From the NCBI RefSeq assembly GCF_013409505.1, contig NZ_JACCBN010000001.1, positions 5,952,001 to 6,016,000 on the forward strand: a DNA stretch of 64,000 nucleotides. Direction: 5' to 3'. Below, in pieces: positions 3,939-11,400 of the stretch. Each line of letters starts with the position of its first letter. Positions within the stretch are counted from its first letter, which is position 1. The stretch comes from Actinomycetospora corticicola. GTDB lineage: Bacteria > Actinomycetota > Actinomycetes > Mycobacteriales > Pseudonocardiaceae. A program made the position numbers and the translations under genes. The notes beneath the pieces were generated by a model. It had not been told where the DNA came from. It did no database searches and saw nothing but the letters and a program-made list of their open reading frames with translations.

Positions 3939-5348
3939 ATGACGCAGAGCCTCGAACGAGCCGAGCAGGTCCTCTCCGACGCGGTCGTGGACGACCGCGA
4001 GGCCGGGGTGGTGAAGGCCAACCGTCGGATCTTCACCGACGAGGAGATCTTCGAACTCGAGATGAAGCACATCTTCGAGGGGAACTGGGTCTACCTCGCC
4101 CACGAGAGCCAGGTCGCGGAGCCCGGGGACTACTTCACCACCTCCATCGGCCGGCAGCCGATCGTCATCACGCGCGACAAGGACGGCGCACTGCACTGCC
4201 TGATCAACGCCTGCGCGCACCGCGGGGCGATGCTCTGCCGCAAGAAGCGGGACAACCGCAAGACGTTGACCTGTCCGTTCCACGGGTGGACCTACCGCAA
4301 CGACGGCACCCTGCTCAAGGTCAAGGACCCGGAGGGCGCCGGCTACCCGGAGAACTTCAACACCAACGGCTCGCACAACCTCGTGAAGGTGCCGGTCTTC
4401 GAGAGCTACCGCGGGTTCCTGTTCGGCAGCCTGAACCCCGACGTCGTCTCCCTGGACGAGCACCTCGGGGACACCACCGAGATCATCGACATGCTCGTCG
4501 ACCAGTCGCCCGAGGGCCTCGAGGTGCTGCGCGGCTCCTCGACCTACACCTTCGACGGGAACTGGAAGGTCCAGGCCGAGAACGGCGCCGACGGCTACCA
4601 CGTGACCGCGCTGCACTGGAACTACGCCGCCACCACCTCGCGTCGCCAGAGCGGCGAGTCGAAGAACGAGACCAAGGCCCTCGACGCCGGGGGCTGGGGC
4701 AAGTCCGGCGGCGGCTACTGGTCCTACCCGAACGGCCACCTGTGCCTGTGGACCTGGAAGGCCAACCCCGAGGACCAGCCGCTCTACAGCGAGATCGACA
4801 GCCTCAAGGAGCAGTTCGGCGACGCGACCGGCGACTTCATGGTGCGCGGCTCCCGCAATCTGTGCCTCTACCCGAACGTCTACCTGATGGACCAGTTCTC
4901 GACGCAGATCCGGCACTTCCGCCCGATCGCGCCGAACCAGACCGAGGTCACCATCTACTGCATCGCGCCGAAGGGCGAGAGCGACGAGGCCCGGGCGAAC
5001 CGGATCCGGCAGTACGAGGACTTCTTCAACGCCTCGGGCATGGCCACGCCGGACGACCTCGAGGAGTTCCGCGCCTGCCAGCTGACGTTCCGGGCCACCA
5101 CCGCGCCCTGGAACGACATGACCCGCGGGGTGCAGCACTGGATCGACGGTCCCGACGAGGTCGCGCGGTCGCTCGGCATGGACGGCGTCATCTCCTCGGG
5201 CGCGAAGAACGAGGACGAGGGCCTCTACCCGGTCCAGCACGGCTACTGGCTCGAGACGATGCGCGCGGCGCTCGGGCGGGAGACGCAGCATCGAGGGGAG
5301 CACGCCGATAGGGGAGCTCGACCCTCTCAGACCGAGAAGGAGGCCTGA
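3939..5348 (+). CDS. benA: Benzoate 1,2-dioxygenase large (alpha) subunit
   Basis: 469 aa from ATG 3939, chosen for the GGAGGA ribosome binding site and the family start. The Rieske [2Fe-2S] ligands are C92/H94 (ACAHRGAML) and C112/H115 (CPFHGWTY). The mononuclear iron site begins at [19 protein letters not shown] with H221 and H226. The [14 protein letters not shown] signature and length match benzoate/toluate dioxygenases (BenA, XylX) rather than naphthalene or biphenyl types. With BenB it forms the hydroxylase that makes the 1,2-cis-diol of benzoate; electrons come from the BenC domain encoded 560 bases downstream. Anthranilate or toluate could also be substrates. Confidence 0.93.
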
Positions 5349-5350
5349 TC

Positions 5351-5905
5351 ATGACGACCACCGAGAAGGCCGTCGAGAACGGCCGCGACGCGGACACCCC
5401 GGGGAGCGGGAACGCCCTCATCACGCAGAACCTCATCGAGCAGTTCCTCTACCGCGAGGCGCGCTATCTCGACGACCGCGAGTTCGAGCGCTGGCTCGAG
5501 TGCTACGCCGACGACGTCGTGTACTGGCTGCCGTGCTGGGACGACGACGACACGCTCACCCAGGACCCGCAGCGCGAGATCTCGCTGATCTACTACCCGA
5601 ACAAGGGCGGGCTCGAGGACCGGGTGTTCCGCATCCGCACCGAGCGTTCCAGTGCGACGTCGATCCCGGAGCCGCGCACCAGCCACAACATCTCGAACGT
5701 CGAGGTGATCGAGCGGACCGGCGACCTGGTCGACGTGCGCTTCAACTGGCACACCATGTACTTCCGGTACAAGACGGTCGACCCGTACTACGGCACGTCG
5801 TTCTACACGATCGACTTCTCCGGCCCGTCGCCGCTGATCCGGCGCAAGACCGTGGTGCTGAAGAACGACTTCATCCACCACGTCGTCGACATCTACCACT
5901 TCTGA
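5351..5905 (+). CDS. benB: Benzoate 1,2-dioxygenase small (beta) subunit
   Basis: 184 aa from ATG 5351, two bases after the benA stop, with GAGAAGGAGG upstream. The cone-shaped ring-hydroxylating beta fold is shown by EQFLYREARYLDDREFERWL, YADDVVYWLPC, the conserved SLIYYPNKGGLEDRVFRIRT and the C-terminal RRKTVVLKNDFIHHVVDIYH. These match BenB/XylY closely. The subunit is structural and helps define specificity in the alpha3beta3 oxygenase. Confidence 0.93.
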   Translation: MTTTEKAVENGRDADTPGSGNALITQNLIEQFLYREARYLDDREFERWLECYADDVVYWLPCWDDDDTLTQDPQREISLIYYPNKGGLEDRVFRIRTERSSATSIPEPRTSHNISNVEVIERTGDLVDVRFNWHTMYFRYKTVDPYYGTSFYTIDFSGPSPLIRRKTVVLKNDFIHHVVDIYHF

Positions 5906-5914
5906 GGAGGGGTC

Positions 5915-8716
5915 ATGACGACGAGCTTCGACGTCGCCCTCGCCTTCGAGGACGGTGTCACCCGCTTCGTGACGTGCCGCGAGGGGCAGACCGTGATGGA
6001 CGCGGCCTATCGCTCGAAGATCAACATCCCGGTCGACTGCAGTGACGGCGCCTGCGGTACCTGCAAGTCCTTCCTCGAGTCCGGCCGGGCCGAGATGGAC
6101 GACTACGTCGAGGACGCGCTGGCCCCCGACGAGGAGGCCGCGGGCTACGTCCTGACCTGCAGCCTGACGCCGAAGTCGGACCTCGTCGTGCAGATCCCGA
6201 CCACGTCCGCCGTCGCGCGGACCAGCGCCGGGAGCTTCACCGCGACCATCGCCGAGATCGAGCGGCTCTCGGAGACGACGGTGTCGTTGACGCTCGACTG
6301 CGAGGACCGGGAGAAGCTCGTCTTCCTGCCCGGGCAGTACGTCAACATCGCCGTGCCGGGCACCGACCAGACCCGCTCGTACTCGTTCTCCTCCGGTCCC
6401 GACGACGGGCCACTCAGCTTCCTGATCAAGCTCTCGCCGGGCGGGGTCATGTCCGAGTACCTCGACCAGTGGGCGTCGGTCGGCGACTCGCTGCAGTTCA
6501 CCGGGCCACACGGCAGCTTCTTCCTGCGGGAGTCCGAGTCGCCGCTGCTGCTGCTCGCGGGCGGCACCGGGCTCGCCCCGATTCTGTCGATCCTGCGGCG
6601 GCTCCGGGCGACCGGCAGCACGCGCCCCGCACACCTGATCTACGGGGCGACCACCGACGACGACGTCGTCGAGCTCGAGACCCTGCGCGGACTCGAGGAG
6701 TCCCTGGAGAACTTCACCTGGGTGCACACCGTCGCCGCCGAGGACACCACGGCCGAGCGGCAGGGCTACGTCACGGCCCACACCGAGCCGGGACACCTGC
6801 ACGACGGCGAGGCCTCGGTCTACCTGTGCGGGCCCCCGCCGATGGTCGACGCCGTCCGGCGCGACCACGCCGAGCGCGGGTTCGAGCCGGCCGGCTTCTA
6901 CTACGAGAAGTTCGCGCTGGCGGCGAAGCCGGACTCCGAACAGGACGCCGCGGCCGACCTCGAGGGTGCCGAGCCCGAGACCGACGCGACCACCCCCGAC
7001 GTCGGGACGGTGGAGGGCGCGGCCGAGGAGGCCGACGACCGCCCGACCCCCGCTCCCGTCGTCCTCGACCAGGAGCCGTCGGCCGGGCTGCTGGAGAGCG
7101 GTGAGGGGCGCGAGCTCGACGGGCGGACGATGCTGCCGCGCACCGGGCTCACGCCCCTCGGCGCGGACGCCCGGGTGGCCGCCGCGTCCGACCTCCCGGA
7201 CGGGAGCCCCGTCGAGGACCTGCCCCGGAGCGTCCTCGGCCGGGTCGTGCTCCCGGCTCGCGACGACGGGGACGGTCGGGTGACCGACGACGACGGCCTG
7301 CTCGTCGCCGCGGACGCCCGCGGCGTCCTCGGGCAGGACGTCTTCGTGTCCGGCGGGATCGAGCCGCTGGTCGCGCCGCGCACCCCGGAGCCGGAGGCCG
7401 TCTCGGTGCCGGGGACGGTGACGACCGACGGCTACGAGATCGGCGAGCAGCACCCGTCGATCCAGGTCTCGGACGCCATCTTCGACGCGCGCCGGGCCCT
7501 GGAACTGGGCGCCCTGGAGCTGACGATCGGGCGGGTCACCTCGCGGCAGATCGCGGGGTACCGCGTGCTCGCGGAGTCGACGGTGCCCTGGGTCGACGTC
7601 GAGAACGAGCGGTTCACCGACGCGCACGCCTACACCGAGTCGAACGCCGCGTTCCACGACTACCTGTTCACGCTGACCGGCAACAGCCACCTGCTGCACG
7701 CCTACCAGGACCTCGGCGTGAAGGGGCACATGGAGGAGTCGCTGCGCTCCGCGACCTGGTGCGACCCACGGTGCGCCCAGGACCACCTCGACATCGTCGA
7801 CGCGATGGAGTCCGGCGACCGCGAGGAGGCGCGCCGGCTGTTCTCCGAACACGCCGAGCGGTCCAAGGCCACCACGCGGCGGGCGATGAACGAGCGGCGG
7901 GCCTCCCGCCGCCCCCGGTTCGTGACGCCGGGTCGCTTCGCCGACCAGGTCGTCGTCGTCACCGGCGCGGGGCAGGGCATCGGCGAGACCACGGCCCGCC
8001 GCATCCACGCCGAGGGCGGCCTGCTGGTGCTCGCCGACCGCGCGGACACCGTCAAGGAGCTGGCGGCGGAACTCGTGGAGGACCGCAGCCCCGGTGTCGG
8101 CGACGCCGTCGCGGTGCTGGCCGACCTCGAGACGTTCGAGGGTGCGCAGGCCGTGGTCGACGCGGCGATCGAGCAGTTCGGACGGGTGGACGTCGCGATC
8201 CACACCGTCGGCGGGACGATCTGGGCGAAGCCCTTCGAGCACTACCCGCCCGAGGAGATCCAGGCGGAGATCCAGCGGTCGTTGTGGCCCACCCTGTGGG
8301 GCTGCCGGGCGGTCGCGCCGCACATGGTCGAGCGGGGAGCGGGGACGATCGTCAACGTCTCCTCGGTGGCCACCCGCGGCATCCACCGCGTGCCCTACGC
8401 CGCGGCGAAGGGCGGGGTCAACGCCATCACCTCGGCGCTGGCGCTCGAGCTCGCGCCGCACGGCATCCGCGTCACGGCCACCGCGCCCGGCGGGACCGAC
8501 GCGCCCGAGCGGAAGACCCCGCGGGGCCCCGGCCCGGCGTCCGACCAGGAACGGGAGTGGTACCAGGGCATCGTCGACCAGACGAAGGACTCGTCGCTCA
8601 TGAAGCGCTACGGCACGCGGGACGAGCAGGCCGCGGCCATCTGCTTCCTGGCCTCGCCCGAGGCGTCGTACATCACCGGGTCGGTCCTGCCGGTGGCCGG
8701 CGGGGACCTCGGCTGA
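5915..8716 (+). CDS. benCD: Fused BenC reductase - FCD domain - BenD diol dehydrogenase
   Basis: One uninterrupted 933-aa frame from ATG 5915 (GAGGAGGGG upstream). Residues 1-95 are a plant-type ferredoxin with C42, C47, C50, C82. Residues 105-335 are the FAD/NAD reductase (RSYSFSSGP, LLLAGGTGLAP, CGPPPMVD, YYEKF), a complete BenC. Residues 336-505 are an acidic, Pro/Ala-rich linker. Residues 506-660 resemble the ligand-binding FCD domain of GntR/FadR regulators (AAFHDYLFTLTGNSHLL; DHLDIVDAMESGDREEARR) with no DNA-binding head. Residues 670-933 are an SDR with TGAGQGIG and catalytic Y828/K832, matching BenD, which oxidises the benzoate diol to catechol. Reductase and dehydrogenase are separate proteins in characterised ben operons; Rhodococcus BopZ is known to carry an unexplained C-terminal extension of about 200 residues. 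A sequencing error joining two genes is unlikely because the linker codes continuously, but cannot be excluded. Confidence 0.9.
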   Translation: MTTSFDVALAFEDGVTRFVTCREGQTVMDAAYRSKINIPVDCSDGACGTCKSFLESGRAEMDDYVEDALAPDEEAAGYVLTCSLTPKSDLVVQIPTTSAVARTSAGSFTATIAEIERLSETTVSLTLDCEDREKLVFLPGQYVNIAVPGTDQTRSYSFSSGPDDGPLSFLIKLSPGGVMSEYLDQWASVGDSLQFTGPHGSFFLRESESPLLLLAGGTGLAPILSILRRLRATGSTRPAHLIYGATTDDDVVELETLRGLEESLENFTWVHTVAAEDTTAERQGYVTAHTEPGHLHDGEASVYLCGPPPMVDAVRRDHAERGFEPAGFYYEKFALAAKPDSEQDAAADLEGAEPETDATTPDVGTVEGAAEEADDRPTPAPVVLDQEPSAGLLESGEGRELDGRTMLPRTGLTPLGADARVAAASDLPDGSPVEDLPRSVLGRVVLPARDDGDGRVTDDDGLLVAADARGVLGQDVFVSGGIEPLVAPRTPEPEAVSVPGTVTTDGYEIGEQHPSIQVSDAIFDARRALELGALELTIGRVTSRQIAGYRVLAESTVPWVDVENERFTDAHAYTESNAAFHDYLFTLTGNSHLLHAYQDLGVKGHMEESLRSATWCDPRCAQDHLDIVDAMESGDREEARRLFSEHAERSKATTRRAMNERRASRRPRFVTPGRFADQVVVVTGAGQGIGETTARRIHAEGGLLVLADRADTVKELAAELVEDRSPGVGDAVAVLADLETFEGAQAVVDAAIEQFGRVDVAIHTVGGTIWAKPFEHYPPEEIQAEIQRSLWPTLWGCRAVAPHMVERGAGTIVNVSSVATRGIHRVPYAAAKGGVNAITSALALELAPHGIRVTATAPGGTDAPERKTPRGPGPASDQEREWYQGIVDQTKDSSLMKRYGTRDEQAAAICFLASPEASYITGSVLPVAGGDLG

Positions 8717-8721
8717 CCGCG

Positions 8722-11400
8722 GTGACCACCGGACCGGACCCCGTCGCGCGCGACCGCAAGGAGATCCGTCGGGCCCTGCTCGACGTCCTCGCGGACGGCG
8801 GCGGTCCGGTCCTGCTCGACGGCGGGATCGGCGCGGGCAAGAGCCGGCTGCTGCGGGAGGTGGTGGCCGGGACGGACCGGGTCCGGCTCGCGGCGACCGC
8901 CGTCGACTGGGAGCAGGACCAGCCCTACGCCGTGGTCGCCCAGCTGCTCGGGGTCGCGGTCGGCGACCTGGCCGGGGACGACCCGTTCGCCGCGGCCGGC
9001 CGCCTCGCCGACCACGTGGGCGACCGCCCCGCGGTCGTCGTCGTCGACGACGCGCACTGGTGCGACCTGCCGTCGTTCCGGGCGCTCTCGACCCTCGCCC
9101 GTCACCACCGCGGCACGCCCGTCGTCGTCCTGCTCGCGGCCACGCCGGGCGGGGCGCGTCCGGAGCTCGCCGACCCGATGCGGCGCGCGGCCGAGCTGTC
9201 GCTGACCCTGGGGCCGCTGTCGGCGCACGAGGTCGAGGAGCTGTGCACCGAGCAGGGGCGCCCGCTCCCGCCGTGGTCGGTCCAACGCCTGACCCGGCAC
9301 ACGCTGGGCAACCCCCGCCACGTCCTCGCGCTCCTCGACGAGCTCGACGGGTGGGACACCCCGGACCTGCGGTTGCCCGCGCCACGCGAGATCGCGGTGC
9401 GGGTCGGGGAGCAGATCGCCGGACTGGGAGCGGACGCGCGGACCCTCGTCGAGACCGTCGCGTGCTTCGCGGAGCCGGTGGGCCTGGACGAGGTCGCGCG
9501 CACCGCGGAGCTCGACGACGTCCTCGAGCCGTTGAGCGAGGCGGCGCACCGGGGTCTGGTCGTCCGGTTCGGCGGACGCTCACTGCCGGTCGTCGGCCCG
9601 GGCGACCCGATGATCCGGGCCGCGGTGCTCGACCTCGTCGGACCGCACCGCGCCGCGGGCATCCGACGGCGGGCGGCCGCGGTGGTCGCCGACCCGCAGC
9701 GCCGGTTGACCCTGCTCGCCGCGGCCACGCCGGGGCAGGACGACGGGCTGGCGGACCGGCTCGACGAGCTGGCGACGCGGAAGGCGGGTGACGGTGCCTG
9801 GTCCGACGCGGCGTACGCCCTGCTCGAGGCGAGCCGGCTGACCGGCCGGCCCGAGGACCGCGAGCTCCTGCTCATCCGCGCGGTGGACGCGCTGATCGGA
9901 GCGGGCGCGGTCGTCGAGGCCGAGGCCCTCATCCCCGCCGTCGAGAACCTGCTCGACACCGCGATCCGGAACTCGGTGCTGGGCTACCTCGCCATCCTGC
10001 TCGGGCGGACCGCCCAGGCGGAGCGGGCGCTGACCCGCGCCTGGGAACTCCGCGACGAGGCCACCGACCCGGACACCGCGGCGTGGATCTGCCAACGGCG
10101 CGTGCTGCACGCCCTGTGCTGCGGGGACGGCGCCGATCTCGTCGCGTGGGCGGACCGGGCCACCGCGCTCGTCGGCGCCGAGCACCCGGCCGCCGTCGAG
10201 GCCCTGGCCATGCGCGGGCTCGGCACGGCGGCCTCCGGCCGTCCCGAGGAGGCGCTGGGGGAGTACCGCGACCTGGCCGTCCAGGTCCTCCGCGGACCGC
10301 AGGTCCAGCGGATCACCATGGGGCACGGCTGGCTCCACCTCGTCGTCGGGAACCTCGACGAGGCCCGGGCGGACCTGGAGAGCGCCGTACCCACCACCAC
10401 CCTCGGCGGCTCGTCGCGCATCTCGCTGTGGGCCGCGGGCTGGCTCGCCCGGGCGCACTTCCTCGCCGGGGACTGGGACCTCGCCCTCCGCGTGGTCGCC
10501 GACGGCCTGCGCCGGGCCGAGGCGTCCGGGATCGCCATCGTCACGCCGCTCCTGGGCTGGACGGCGGCCCAGATCCACAGCCTGCGCGGCGACCCCGACC
10601 GAGCCGAACGCGTCCTGCGCGACACGAACGCGGGCGCCGAGGGCTACGAGATCATGGCGGTGCCGCGCCGGCTGGCCCGCGCGGCGCTGGCCGAGGCCCG
10701 CTCCGACTACGGCGCCGTGGTCCGGGCCCTGCGCCCGCTGACCGTCCGCGGCGACGACAGCACGGTCGCCCGCCCCGGCTGGTGGCCGTGGCGCGACGTC
10801 TACGCGAACGCCCTGGTCCTCGAGGGCCACCTGGACGAGGCCGAGGCGTTCCTCGCCGAGCACGAGTCCCGGGCGGAGGCCCACGGCAACGCCGCCGAGT
10901 GCGCCCGGCTGGCCTGGGCACGCGGCCGCCTGCACGCCGCGCACGGCGACGCGGACGCCGCGCGCGAGTCGTTCGAGACCGCGATCCGGGCCCTGGACGG
11001 CATGTCGTTGCGGTGGGACCGCGCCCGCGCCCACTTCGCCTACGGCGGCTCGATGCGCCGGCTCGGGCGGCGCCGCGAGGCCGACACCGTGCTCTCCACC
11101 GCGCGCGAACTGTTCCTCGCCCTGGGCGCGACCAGCTACGTCGCGCGCTGCGACCGGGAGCTGCGCGCCGGCGGCGTGCACCAGAGCCGGACCGGCCGGG
11201 ACGCGAACGGCCTGACGTCGCAGGAGACGGCCGTCGTGCGGCTGGTCAGCACCGGCATGTCGAACAAGGACGTGGCGGCCGAGCTGCAGGTGTCGCCGAA
11301 GACCGTCCAGTACCACCTGACCCGCATCTACACGAAGGTCGGCGTCCGGTCGCGCACCGAGCTCGCCCGGCTGCACGTCGAGGAGGAGTCGTCGGCATGA
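8722..11400 (+). CDS. LuxR-family ATP-binding regulator (LAL type), BenR-like
   Basis: 892 aa from GTG 8722, five bases after the benCD stop. A Walker A (GGIGAGKSRLL, about 33-43) and Walker B (VVVVDDAHW, about 105-113) mark a STAND/AAA ATPase, followed by a long helical TPR-like region. The last 60 residues are a LuxR helix-turn-helix (LTSQETAVVRLVSTGMSNKD, then VSPKTVQYHLTRIYTKVGV). LAL proteins bind an inducer, hydrolyse ATP and activate promoters. Corynebacterium glutamicum BenR, the activator of its ben genes, is of this type, so this is the likely activator of the operon that encodes it (inference from position and family). Confidence 0.88.
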   Translation: MTTGPDPVARDRKEIRRALLDVLADGGGPVLLDGGIGAGKSRLLREVVAGTDRVRLAATAVDWEQDQPYAVVAQLLGVAVGDLAGDDPFAAAGRLADHVGDRPAVVVVDDAHWCDLPSFRALSTLARHHRGTPVVVLLAATPGGARPELADPMRRAAELSLTLGPLSAHEVEELCTEQGRPLPPWSVQRLTRHTLGNPRHVLALLDELDGWDTPDLRLPAPREIAVRVGEQIAGLGADARTLVETVACFAEPVGLDEVARTAELDDVLEPLSEAAHRGLVVRFGGRSLPVVGPGDPMIRAAVLDLVGPHRAAGIRRRAAAVVADPQRRLTLLAAATPGQDDGLADRLDELATRKAGDGAWSDAAYALLEASRLTGRPEDRELLLIRAVDALIGAGAVVEAEALIPAVENLLDTAIRNSVLGYLAILLGRTAQAERALTRAWELRDEATDPDTAAWICQRRVLHALCCGDGADLVAWADRATALVGAEHPAAVEALAMRGLGTAASGRPEEALGEYRDLAVQVLRGPQVQRITMGHGWLHLVVGNLDEARADLESAVPTTTLGGSSRISLWAAGWLARAHFLAGDWDLALRVVADGLRRAEASGIAIVTPLLGWTAAQIHSLRGDPDRAERVLRDTNAGAEGYEIMAVPRRLARAALAEARSDYGAVVRALRPLTVRGDDSTVARPGWWPWRDVYANALVLEGHLDEAEAFLAEHESRAEAHGNAAECARLAWARGRLHAAHGDADAARESFETAIRALDGMSLRWDRARAHFAYGGSMRRLGRRREADTVLSTARELFLALGATSYVARCDRELRAGGVHQSRTGRDANGLTSQETAVVRLVSTGMSNKDVAAELQVSPKTVQYHLTRIYTKVGVRSRTELARLHVEEESSA

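Follow-up and report, generated by a model that had tools for sequence, protein, structure and literature searches.

The stretch of DNA analysed here (the window) comprises 64,000 nucleotides of Actinomycetospora corticicola (contig NZ_JACCBN010000001.1, positions 5,952,001 to 6,016,000 of the forward strand) and contains a gene in which the benzoate dioxygenase reductase BenC, an FCD domain and the diol dehydrogenase BenD are joined. A preliminary description of this DNA had claimed the three modules for one polypeptide, which is borne out: an uninterrupted frame of 933 residues runs from ATG to stop and fills window positions 5915-8716 of the plus strand, and the models NF040810, PF07729 and NF040811 are all matched over their cut-offs. 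The protein is divided as follows.

5915..8716, plus strand: BenC-linker-FCD-BenD fusion, 933 amino acids, from the open frame and the family matches; same form in 80/80 loci
5915..6913, plus strand: BenC module, residues 1-333, with 2Fe-2S ferredoxin, FAD and NAD domains (NF040810; Fer2, FAD_binding_6, NAD_binding_1)
6914..7471, plus strand: linker, residues 334-519, mostly predicted to be disordered (predicted local distance difference test score, pLDDT, mostly below 50; column identity 0.36)
7472..7909, plus strand: FCD domain, residues 520-665, without winged helix (PF07729, helices, Foldseek matches to FCD regulators)
7934..8713, plus strand: BenD module, residues 674-933, a diol dehydrogenase of the short-chain dehydrogenase/reductase type (NF040811, catalytic residues)

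Both enzymatic modules are assigned at the level of equivalogs. The NCBIfam model for BenC, NF040810, matches residues 5-334 with 466 bits (cut-off 430), and the model for BenD, NF040811, matches residues 674-933 with 405 bits (cut-off 380). Pfam recognises Fer2, FAD_binding_6 and NAD_binding_1 in the BenC part, and the ferredoxin cysteines C42, C47, C50 and C82, already pointed out in the preliminary description, are present and invariant in 57/57 fusions of the alignment on which the conservation figures given here are based. The same holds for S816, S817, Y828 and K832 of BenD, which include the catalytic Ser, Tyr and Lys. The closest solved structure to the BenC part is the benzoate dioxygenase reductase 1krh (E 3.4e-102) from Acinetobacter, which serves the same pathway step but is a separate BenC of 338 residues without FCD, with BenD encoded separately. 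The BenC module is expected to transfer electrons from NADH to the dioxygenase BenAB. No BenD match other than the fused one was obtained in the host genome at E <= 1e-40. As a side observation, the same genome encodes a second, weaker BenC-like reductase (G000 C1 4193536-4194516; 207.9 bits, below the cut-off, in a frame of 395 residues), and 14 further genomes of the genus have a counterpart of it.

The middle segment is an FCD domain, as had been proposed. Pfam FCD (PF07729) matches residues 522-648 with 59.4 bits against a gathering cut-off of 24.3 (E 6e-16), and 63.7 bits were obtained for it in the scan of the whole genome. Of the 14 FCD matches of the host in that scan, 13 occur in frames that span 234-400 residues; the fusion has one of 936. 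The domain had been placed at residues 500-665, which is right for the helices at 521-665; its first residues belong to the end of the linker. A whole-chain AlphaFold2 model, computed with 57 related fusions, reached a mean pLDDT of 76.7 and a predicted template modelling score (pTM) of 0.49; BenC, FCD and BenD appear in it as three folded modules. Its FCD core is predicted to be all-helical, as in solved FCD domains, with pLDDT blocks mostly of 81-95 but of 65 and 73 around residues 591-610. A model of the isolated FCD was weaker (pLDDT 68.9); with this model, the best Foldseek match was the regulator DhdR (E 5e-3), and rows 1-47 are GntR-type regulators. When solved structures were searched with a sequence profile from the narrow alignment of fusion FCDs, 0 matches were obtained at E <= 0.001. 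A chance match to the FCD family was rejected on the Pfam and genome scores together with the Foldseek rows to FCD regulators. The domain comes without its usual DNA-binding partner, again in agreement with the earlier claim: the GntR winged-helix family is absent from the list of 8 Pfam families with E <= 1 for the protein. Hence the fusion shares the FCD family with the GntR regulators Ps5454, TM0439, DgoR and DhdR, but lacks the winged helix that characterises regulators of the FadR type. A function of the FCD as the DNA-binding regulator of the operon was considered and dismissed, because there is no winged helix in the protein and a LuxR-type regulator sits downstream.

The assignment as an FCD of the carboxylate-sensing type rests on the ligands known from solved FCD domains, all of which are kept. 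The residues in question are given below with their coordinates.

7643..7645, plus strand: N577, predicted metal ligand (57/57; spacing as Ps5454 Asn144)
7655..7657, plus strand: H581, predicted metal ligand (57/57; as Ps5454 His148)
7760..7774, plus strand: C616-x3-C620, one turn before H624, nearly confined to the fusion form
7784..7786, plus strand: H624, predicted metal ligand (57/57; as Ps5454 His192)
7850..7852, plus strand: H646, predicted metal ligand (57/57; as Ps5454 His214)

The spacing of N577, H581, H624 and H646 (+4/+43/+22) follows that of the metal ligands Asn144, His148, His192 and His214 reported for Ps5454 (+4/+44/+22; PMC7674646, seen in part). According to the same excerpt, binding of D-galactonate by the regulator DgoR required metal (PMC7674646). 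The full Asn/His/His/His set occurs in 57/57 aligned fusion FCDs and in 33/33 of those in the tree set described below, and R526 of the FCD is likewise invariant (57/57). The cysteine pair is of a different kind: C620 is found in 57/57 and C616 in 56/57 aligned fusions, and neither has an equivalent in 9 other reductase FCDs (3 from two-gene forms, 2 joined to a P450, 4 on flavin reductases). The pair lies close to the predicted metal site and may possibly act as a thiol switch.

By two measures, constraint within the protein is strongest on the FCD. Mean column identity is 0.82 for the FCD, 0.78 for BenC, 0.77 for BenD and 0.36 for the linker (residues 334-506). The median ratio of non-synonymous to synonymous substitution rates (dN/dS), calculated from 15 pairs among 6 Actinomycetospora sequences, follows with 0.115 for the FCD, 0.192 for BenD, 0.228 for BenC and 0.354 for the linker.

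The linker has pLDDT values mainly below 50 over residues 334-515 and carries a repeat of the form R-x-[IV]-A-G-Q-x-hydrophobic, of which three copies were located.

7109..7138, plus strand: linker motif copy 1, residues 399-408, degenerate; fails the strict pattern, G403 nearly invariant
7226..7255, plus strand: linker motif copy 2, residues 438-447; fits the strict pattern
7319..7348, plus strand: linker motif copy 3, residues 469-478; fits the strict pattern, R469 nearly invariant

A weak strand-turn-strand is modelled in all three copies (residues 400-405, 439-444 and 470-475). Among 98 distinct linkers of 71-238 residues, a broader motif, R-x-[IVL]-x-G-[QR]-x-hydrophobic, is present at least once in 90 and at least twice in 61. 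Altogether 171 copies were counted, against a mean of 0.18 across 200 shuffles; the pattern was composed after the linkers had been read and the linkers are related, so that these numbers speak for conservation and not for strict significance. The motifs persist in a BenC-BenD fusion without FCD, and two FCD-less BenC proteins terminate in one (loci L166, L181 and L183). We consider the motif a likely candidate for a docking peptide.

The surroundings of the fusion are those of a benzoate operon, with benA and benB directly upstream and a regulator gene directly downstream.

3939..5348, plus strand: benA, benzoate dioxygenase large subunit (TIGR03229, 797.6 bits, cut-off 780.95)
5351..5905, plus strand: benB, benzoate dioxygenase small subunit (TIGR03232, 270.5 bits, cut-off 225.55)
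8719..11400, plus strand: large LuxR-type regulator, start uncertain (frame and LuxR-like C-terminus as read)

The fusion starts 9 bases past the benB stop codon. The product of 8719-11400, which matches NCBIfam only weakly (41.5 bits, cut-off 850), is likely the transcriptional regulator of the ben operon. In Tsukamurella a helix-turn-helix regulator occupies the equivalent position, and a home-made LuxR pattern was found downstream of the fusion in 35 of the 52 loci whose downstream sequence extends for 2.5 kb or more, an uncontrolled and therefore weak count.

The same architecture occurs in many other genomes. The three modules share one open frame in all of 80 loci, which were the best 80 out of 159 relatives ranked by their similarity to a fusion FCD; this choice is biased to close FCD relatives and hence says nothing on the frequency of other forms. 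Hosts include Actinomycetospora, Pseudonocardia, Geodermatophilus, Saccharopolyspora, Amycolatopsis and Prauserella, as well as Nocardioides, Gordonia, Rhodococcus, Mycolicibacterium, Streptomyces and others. Within the genus, BenC exceeds the cut-off in 6 of 18 genomes, the host included, and all six possess the three-module frame. In a search of the family, 23 of 200 genomes gave matches with E < 1e-70 to the middle segment, in open frames of 882-1193 residues, and BenC, FCD and BenD are all present in the 20 loci retained of these 23. At the level of the order, 30 of 298 genomes have a BenC over the cut-off; the FCD is present in 27 and the three-module frame in 26 of them. A stop or frameshift between the modules, which the preliminary description had named as a possible refutation, is thus absent from the 80 loci and the six genomes of the genus. 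An error of sequencing or assembly as the source of the fusion, in favour of which nothing was found, has virtually no probability left in view of the identical frame in those 80 loci and in five further genomes of the genus.

The remaining forms are few. Within the order, one genome (G445) encodes BenC-FCD with BenD as the next gene, one (G143) a BenC-linker-BenD protein without FCD, and two (G384, G439) a short-tailed BenC alongside a separate BenD, also without FCD. In a sample of the phylum, BenC was over the cut-off in 4 of 396 genomes, three of them with the fusion and one (G459) with BenC-FCD and a separate BenD. Together with G190, the BenC-FCD form with a separate BenD gene is known from three genomes. 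Five proteobacterial plasmid BenC genes that were opened encode 336-347 residues, with the diol dehydrogenase separate.

The fusion is therefore not unique to the host; it is common in actinobacteria and has been in print since 2019, when a benC-benD-FCD fusion was described for Gordonia alkanivorans YC-RL2 and the FCD was named (PMC6362181). That system resembles ours in the three modules, the benABCD operon and the LuxR-type regulator; the excerpt of the paper available to us treats one genome and assigns no function, and the module order, metal site, spread, losses and linker motif go beyond it. For Rhodococcus ruber Chol-4, the label reductase/diol dehydrogenase is given to benC (PMC6498646, seen in part). 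The preliminary description had further supposed that an unexplained C-terminal extension of the Rhodococcus benzoate reductase BopZ is a module of the FCD kind. Indirect support comes from Rhodococcus TG-1, whose benC is called 'FCD domain-containing protein' with benD separate in the part of the report at hand (PMC11858498), and from the three BenC-FCD genomes. No study on the function of the ben-fusion FCD was among the matches listed in our literature search. The fusion is real, widespread and partly known as annotation, and it is functionally unexplored. New in our analysis are the kept metal site of the FCD, its position as the most conserved module and its recurrence on other oxygenase reductases.

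The history of the fusion can be followed in part. In a careful tree of FCD domains, the 33 fusion FCDs form a single clade (support 99/99), with the two-gene forms of G445 and G459 just outside. Quick trees of BenC and BenD, supported by the Shimodaira-Hasegawa-like approximate likelihood ratio test (SH-aLRT) only, place the three FCD-less forms inside the fusion clade, at two places. The simplest reading of these trees is that BenC-FCD would have existed first, followed by one fusion to BenD and by at least two losses of the FCD. The deeper branching order is unsure owing to the long branches outside the fusion clade. Only 2 of 8 GntR FCDs of the host genome could be placed in the FCD tree, on very long branches. 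One of the FCD-less forms (L166 325-2571, minus strand; 749 residues) is a natural BenC-linker-BenD fusion and as such a ready experimental control.

The FCD subfamily is also found on other reductases. A profile of the fusion FCD gave three matches outside ben genes at E <= 1e-22 in the order and phylum samples (L064, L066, L067), in searches that scored only 9-12 candidates per genome and may have missed closer regulators. All three are flavin reductase-FCD proteins; the GntR winged helix is over the cut-off in L064 and L067 and weak, below the cut-off, in L066. With L191 as a fourth case, the flavin reductase-GntR-FCD form was seen in 4/4 proteins scanned. They share the FCD subfamily on a reductase with the ben fusion, and differ from it in the reductase family and in the retained winged helix. 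Moreover, the FCD was matched on five Paraburkholderia plasmids. In each of the two plasmid proteins that were read, a single chain combines a BenC-like reductase with the FCD and a cytochrome P450.

L156 3984-6773 and L157 3858-6737: reductase-FCD-P450 proteins (reading of both; Pfam for one)

These proteins are like the ben fusion in the order of reductase and FCD and in the ligand set, but a P450 replaces BenD as the third module and the linker is very short. The substrate of the P450 is not readable from its matches to solved P450s, among which 7wex is best (E 5.4e-51) and is followed by many unrelated P450s; for one of the two proteins, the NCBI label is benC only. The Asn/His/His/His set is present in 3/3 FCDs of the two-gene forms, 2/2 of the P450 form and 3/4 of the flavin reductase form, the fourth having Ser for Asn. 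Three loci from Mycobacteriales-type genomes (L152, L153 and L154; frames of 864-932 residues) were rejected as further fusions, since on reading they are without FCD. As read, they join a BenC-like reductase to a region resembling an FAD-dependent oxidoreductase.

A regulator-type domain on the reductase of an aromatic oxygenase has a biochemical precedent in AbHpaC (C1), the reductase of p-hydroxyphenylacetate hydroxylase of Acinetobacter baumannii (PMC10816480). According to the portion of that work available to us, its C-terminal MarR domain binds 4-hydroxyphenylacetate, which relieves self-inhibition and accelerates flavin reduction at least 30-fold (PMC10816480). The architecture differs from that of the fusion, being flavin reductase plus MarR instead of BenC plus FCD and having no dehydrogenase attached; the likeness is one of analogy, not of descent. 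L067 (3-2718, minus strand), in which a flavin reductase-GntR-FCD protein adjoins an HpaB-type monooxygenase, represents the FCD counterpart of this MarR reductase.

Because of the analogy with AbHpaC, a reductase released by its substrate, we propose that the FCD gates BenC. The domain would bind a divalent metal and, via this metal, the carboxylate of benzoate or of the cis-diol. Ligand binding would alter the packing of the FCD on the flavin domain of BenC, so that NADH could be oxidised at full rate only with substrate present, and wasteful NADH oxidation and peroxide formation would be limited. With BenC docked on BenAB, the tethered BenD would be held near the oxygenase, where it could take over the unstable diol and give back the NADH spent by BenC; transcription control would be left to the separate LuxR-type regulator. 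The half-reactions of BenC and BenD balance in NADH. We put the probability of this role, in which a carboxylate effector domain that depends on metal controls the use of NADH and BenD is tethered to receive the diol, close to one half but on the lower side. Somewhat less probable still, and put forward tentatively, is the wider idea that the FCD is a substrate switch on a Rieske reductase and belongs to a recurring class of effector domains moved onto aromatic-oxygenase reductases, to which BenD was then fused in actinobacteria as an NADH-balanced unit. The class would comprise the BenC-FCD, BenC-like-FCD-P450 and flavin reductase-GntR-FCD proteins, with AbHpaC-MarR joining by analogy, and electrons would flow in it only with an aromatic acid present.

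Several observations count against the proposed gating. Both the gating and the ligand are derived from sequence and analogy, and the P450 and flavin reductase cases are instances of co-occurrence, not of gating. The Asn/His/His/His set was also found in both host-genome GntR FCDs that aligned; as the ordinary FCD set, it indicates a working site but is no signature of benzoate. The search with the isolated FCD model (see above) yielded zero Foldseek matches at E <= 0.001. The long flexible linker makes a tight coupling of FCD and BenC less obvious, and at the pTM of the whole-chain model the packing of the domains is not readable. Finally, the three of 30 BenC genomes of the order without FCD are nested among fusions on the BenC tree; the FCD was thus lost at least twice, and since these losses were tolerated, it is not essential.

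The foremost alternative is that the FCD serves only as a structural scaffold. In regulators, FCD domains form dimers, and that of the fusion might do the same around a structural metal and build, together with a tetrameric BenD, a multi-enzyme particle round BenAB without any effector. The PDB titles returned by Foldseek include the 'dimerization domain' of PdhR, the attached BenD and the repeated linker motif suit a role in assembly, and the one fused BenC-BenD protein without FCD retains the linker motifs. On the other hand, the invariance of the buried Asn/His/His/His set and of R526 goes beyond the needs of a dimer surface, and in the three two-gene genomes the reductase that bears the FCD is separate from BenD; we therefore rate the scaffold as rather unlikely. 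The latter genomes also speak against a channelling role, in which the FCD would bind the diol as a transfer station between oxygenase and BenD without switching the reductase, as does the FCD between reductase and P450, which has no diol step. Such channelling, which appears improbable to us, would agree with the position of the FCD directly before BenD and with C616/C620 near the site in the fusion form, a pair found in 0/9 of the other reductase FCDs compared. Even more doubtful is the view of the FCD as a relic of a recruited regulator with no role beyond spacing. The losses mentioned above would fit it, and the winged helix that the flavin reductase relatives retain before the FCD suggests descent from a fusion with a regulator; however, a relic would hardly be expected to show the strongest conservation of all modules in both column identity and dN/dS.

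When electrons flow in the absence of substrate, Rieske oxygenase systems waste NADH and generate peroxide; to our knowledge, the cellular limits on such uncoupled flow at the reductase have been little explored. If the FCD gates BenC, it would be a genetically encoded and swappable substrate switch on an oxygenase reductase, and nature has already joined the module to a P450. The fusion would also lend itself readily to tests of NADH balancing and of the transfer of the diol. Current annotation hides it: the NCBI pipeline names the Tsukamurella copy 'BenC' only, so that BenD appears to be missing in the 10.5 kb shown.

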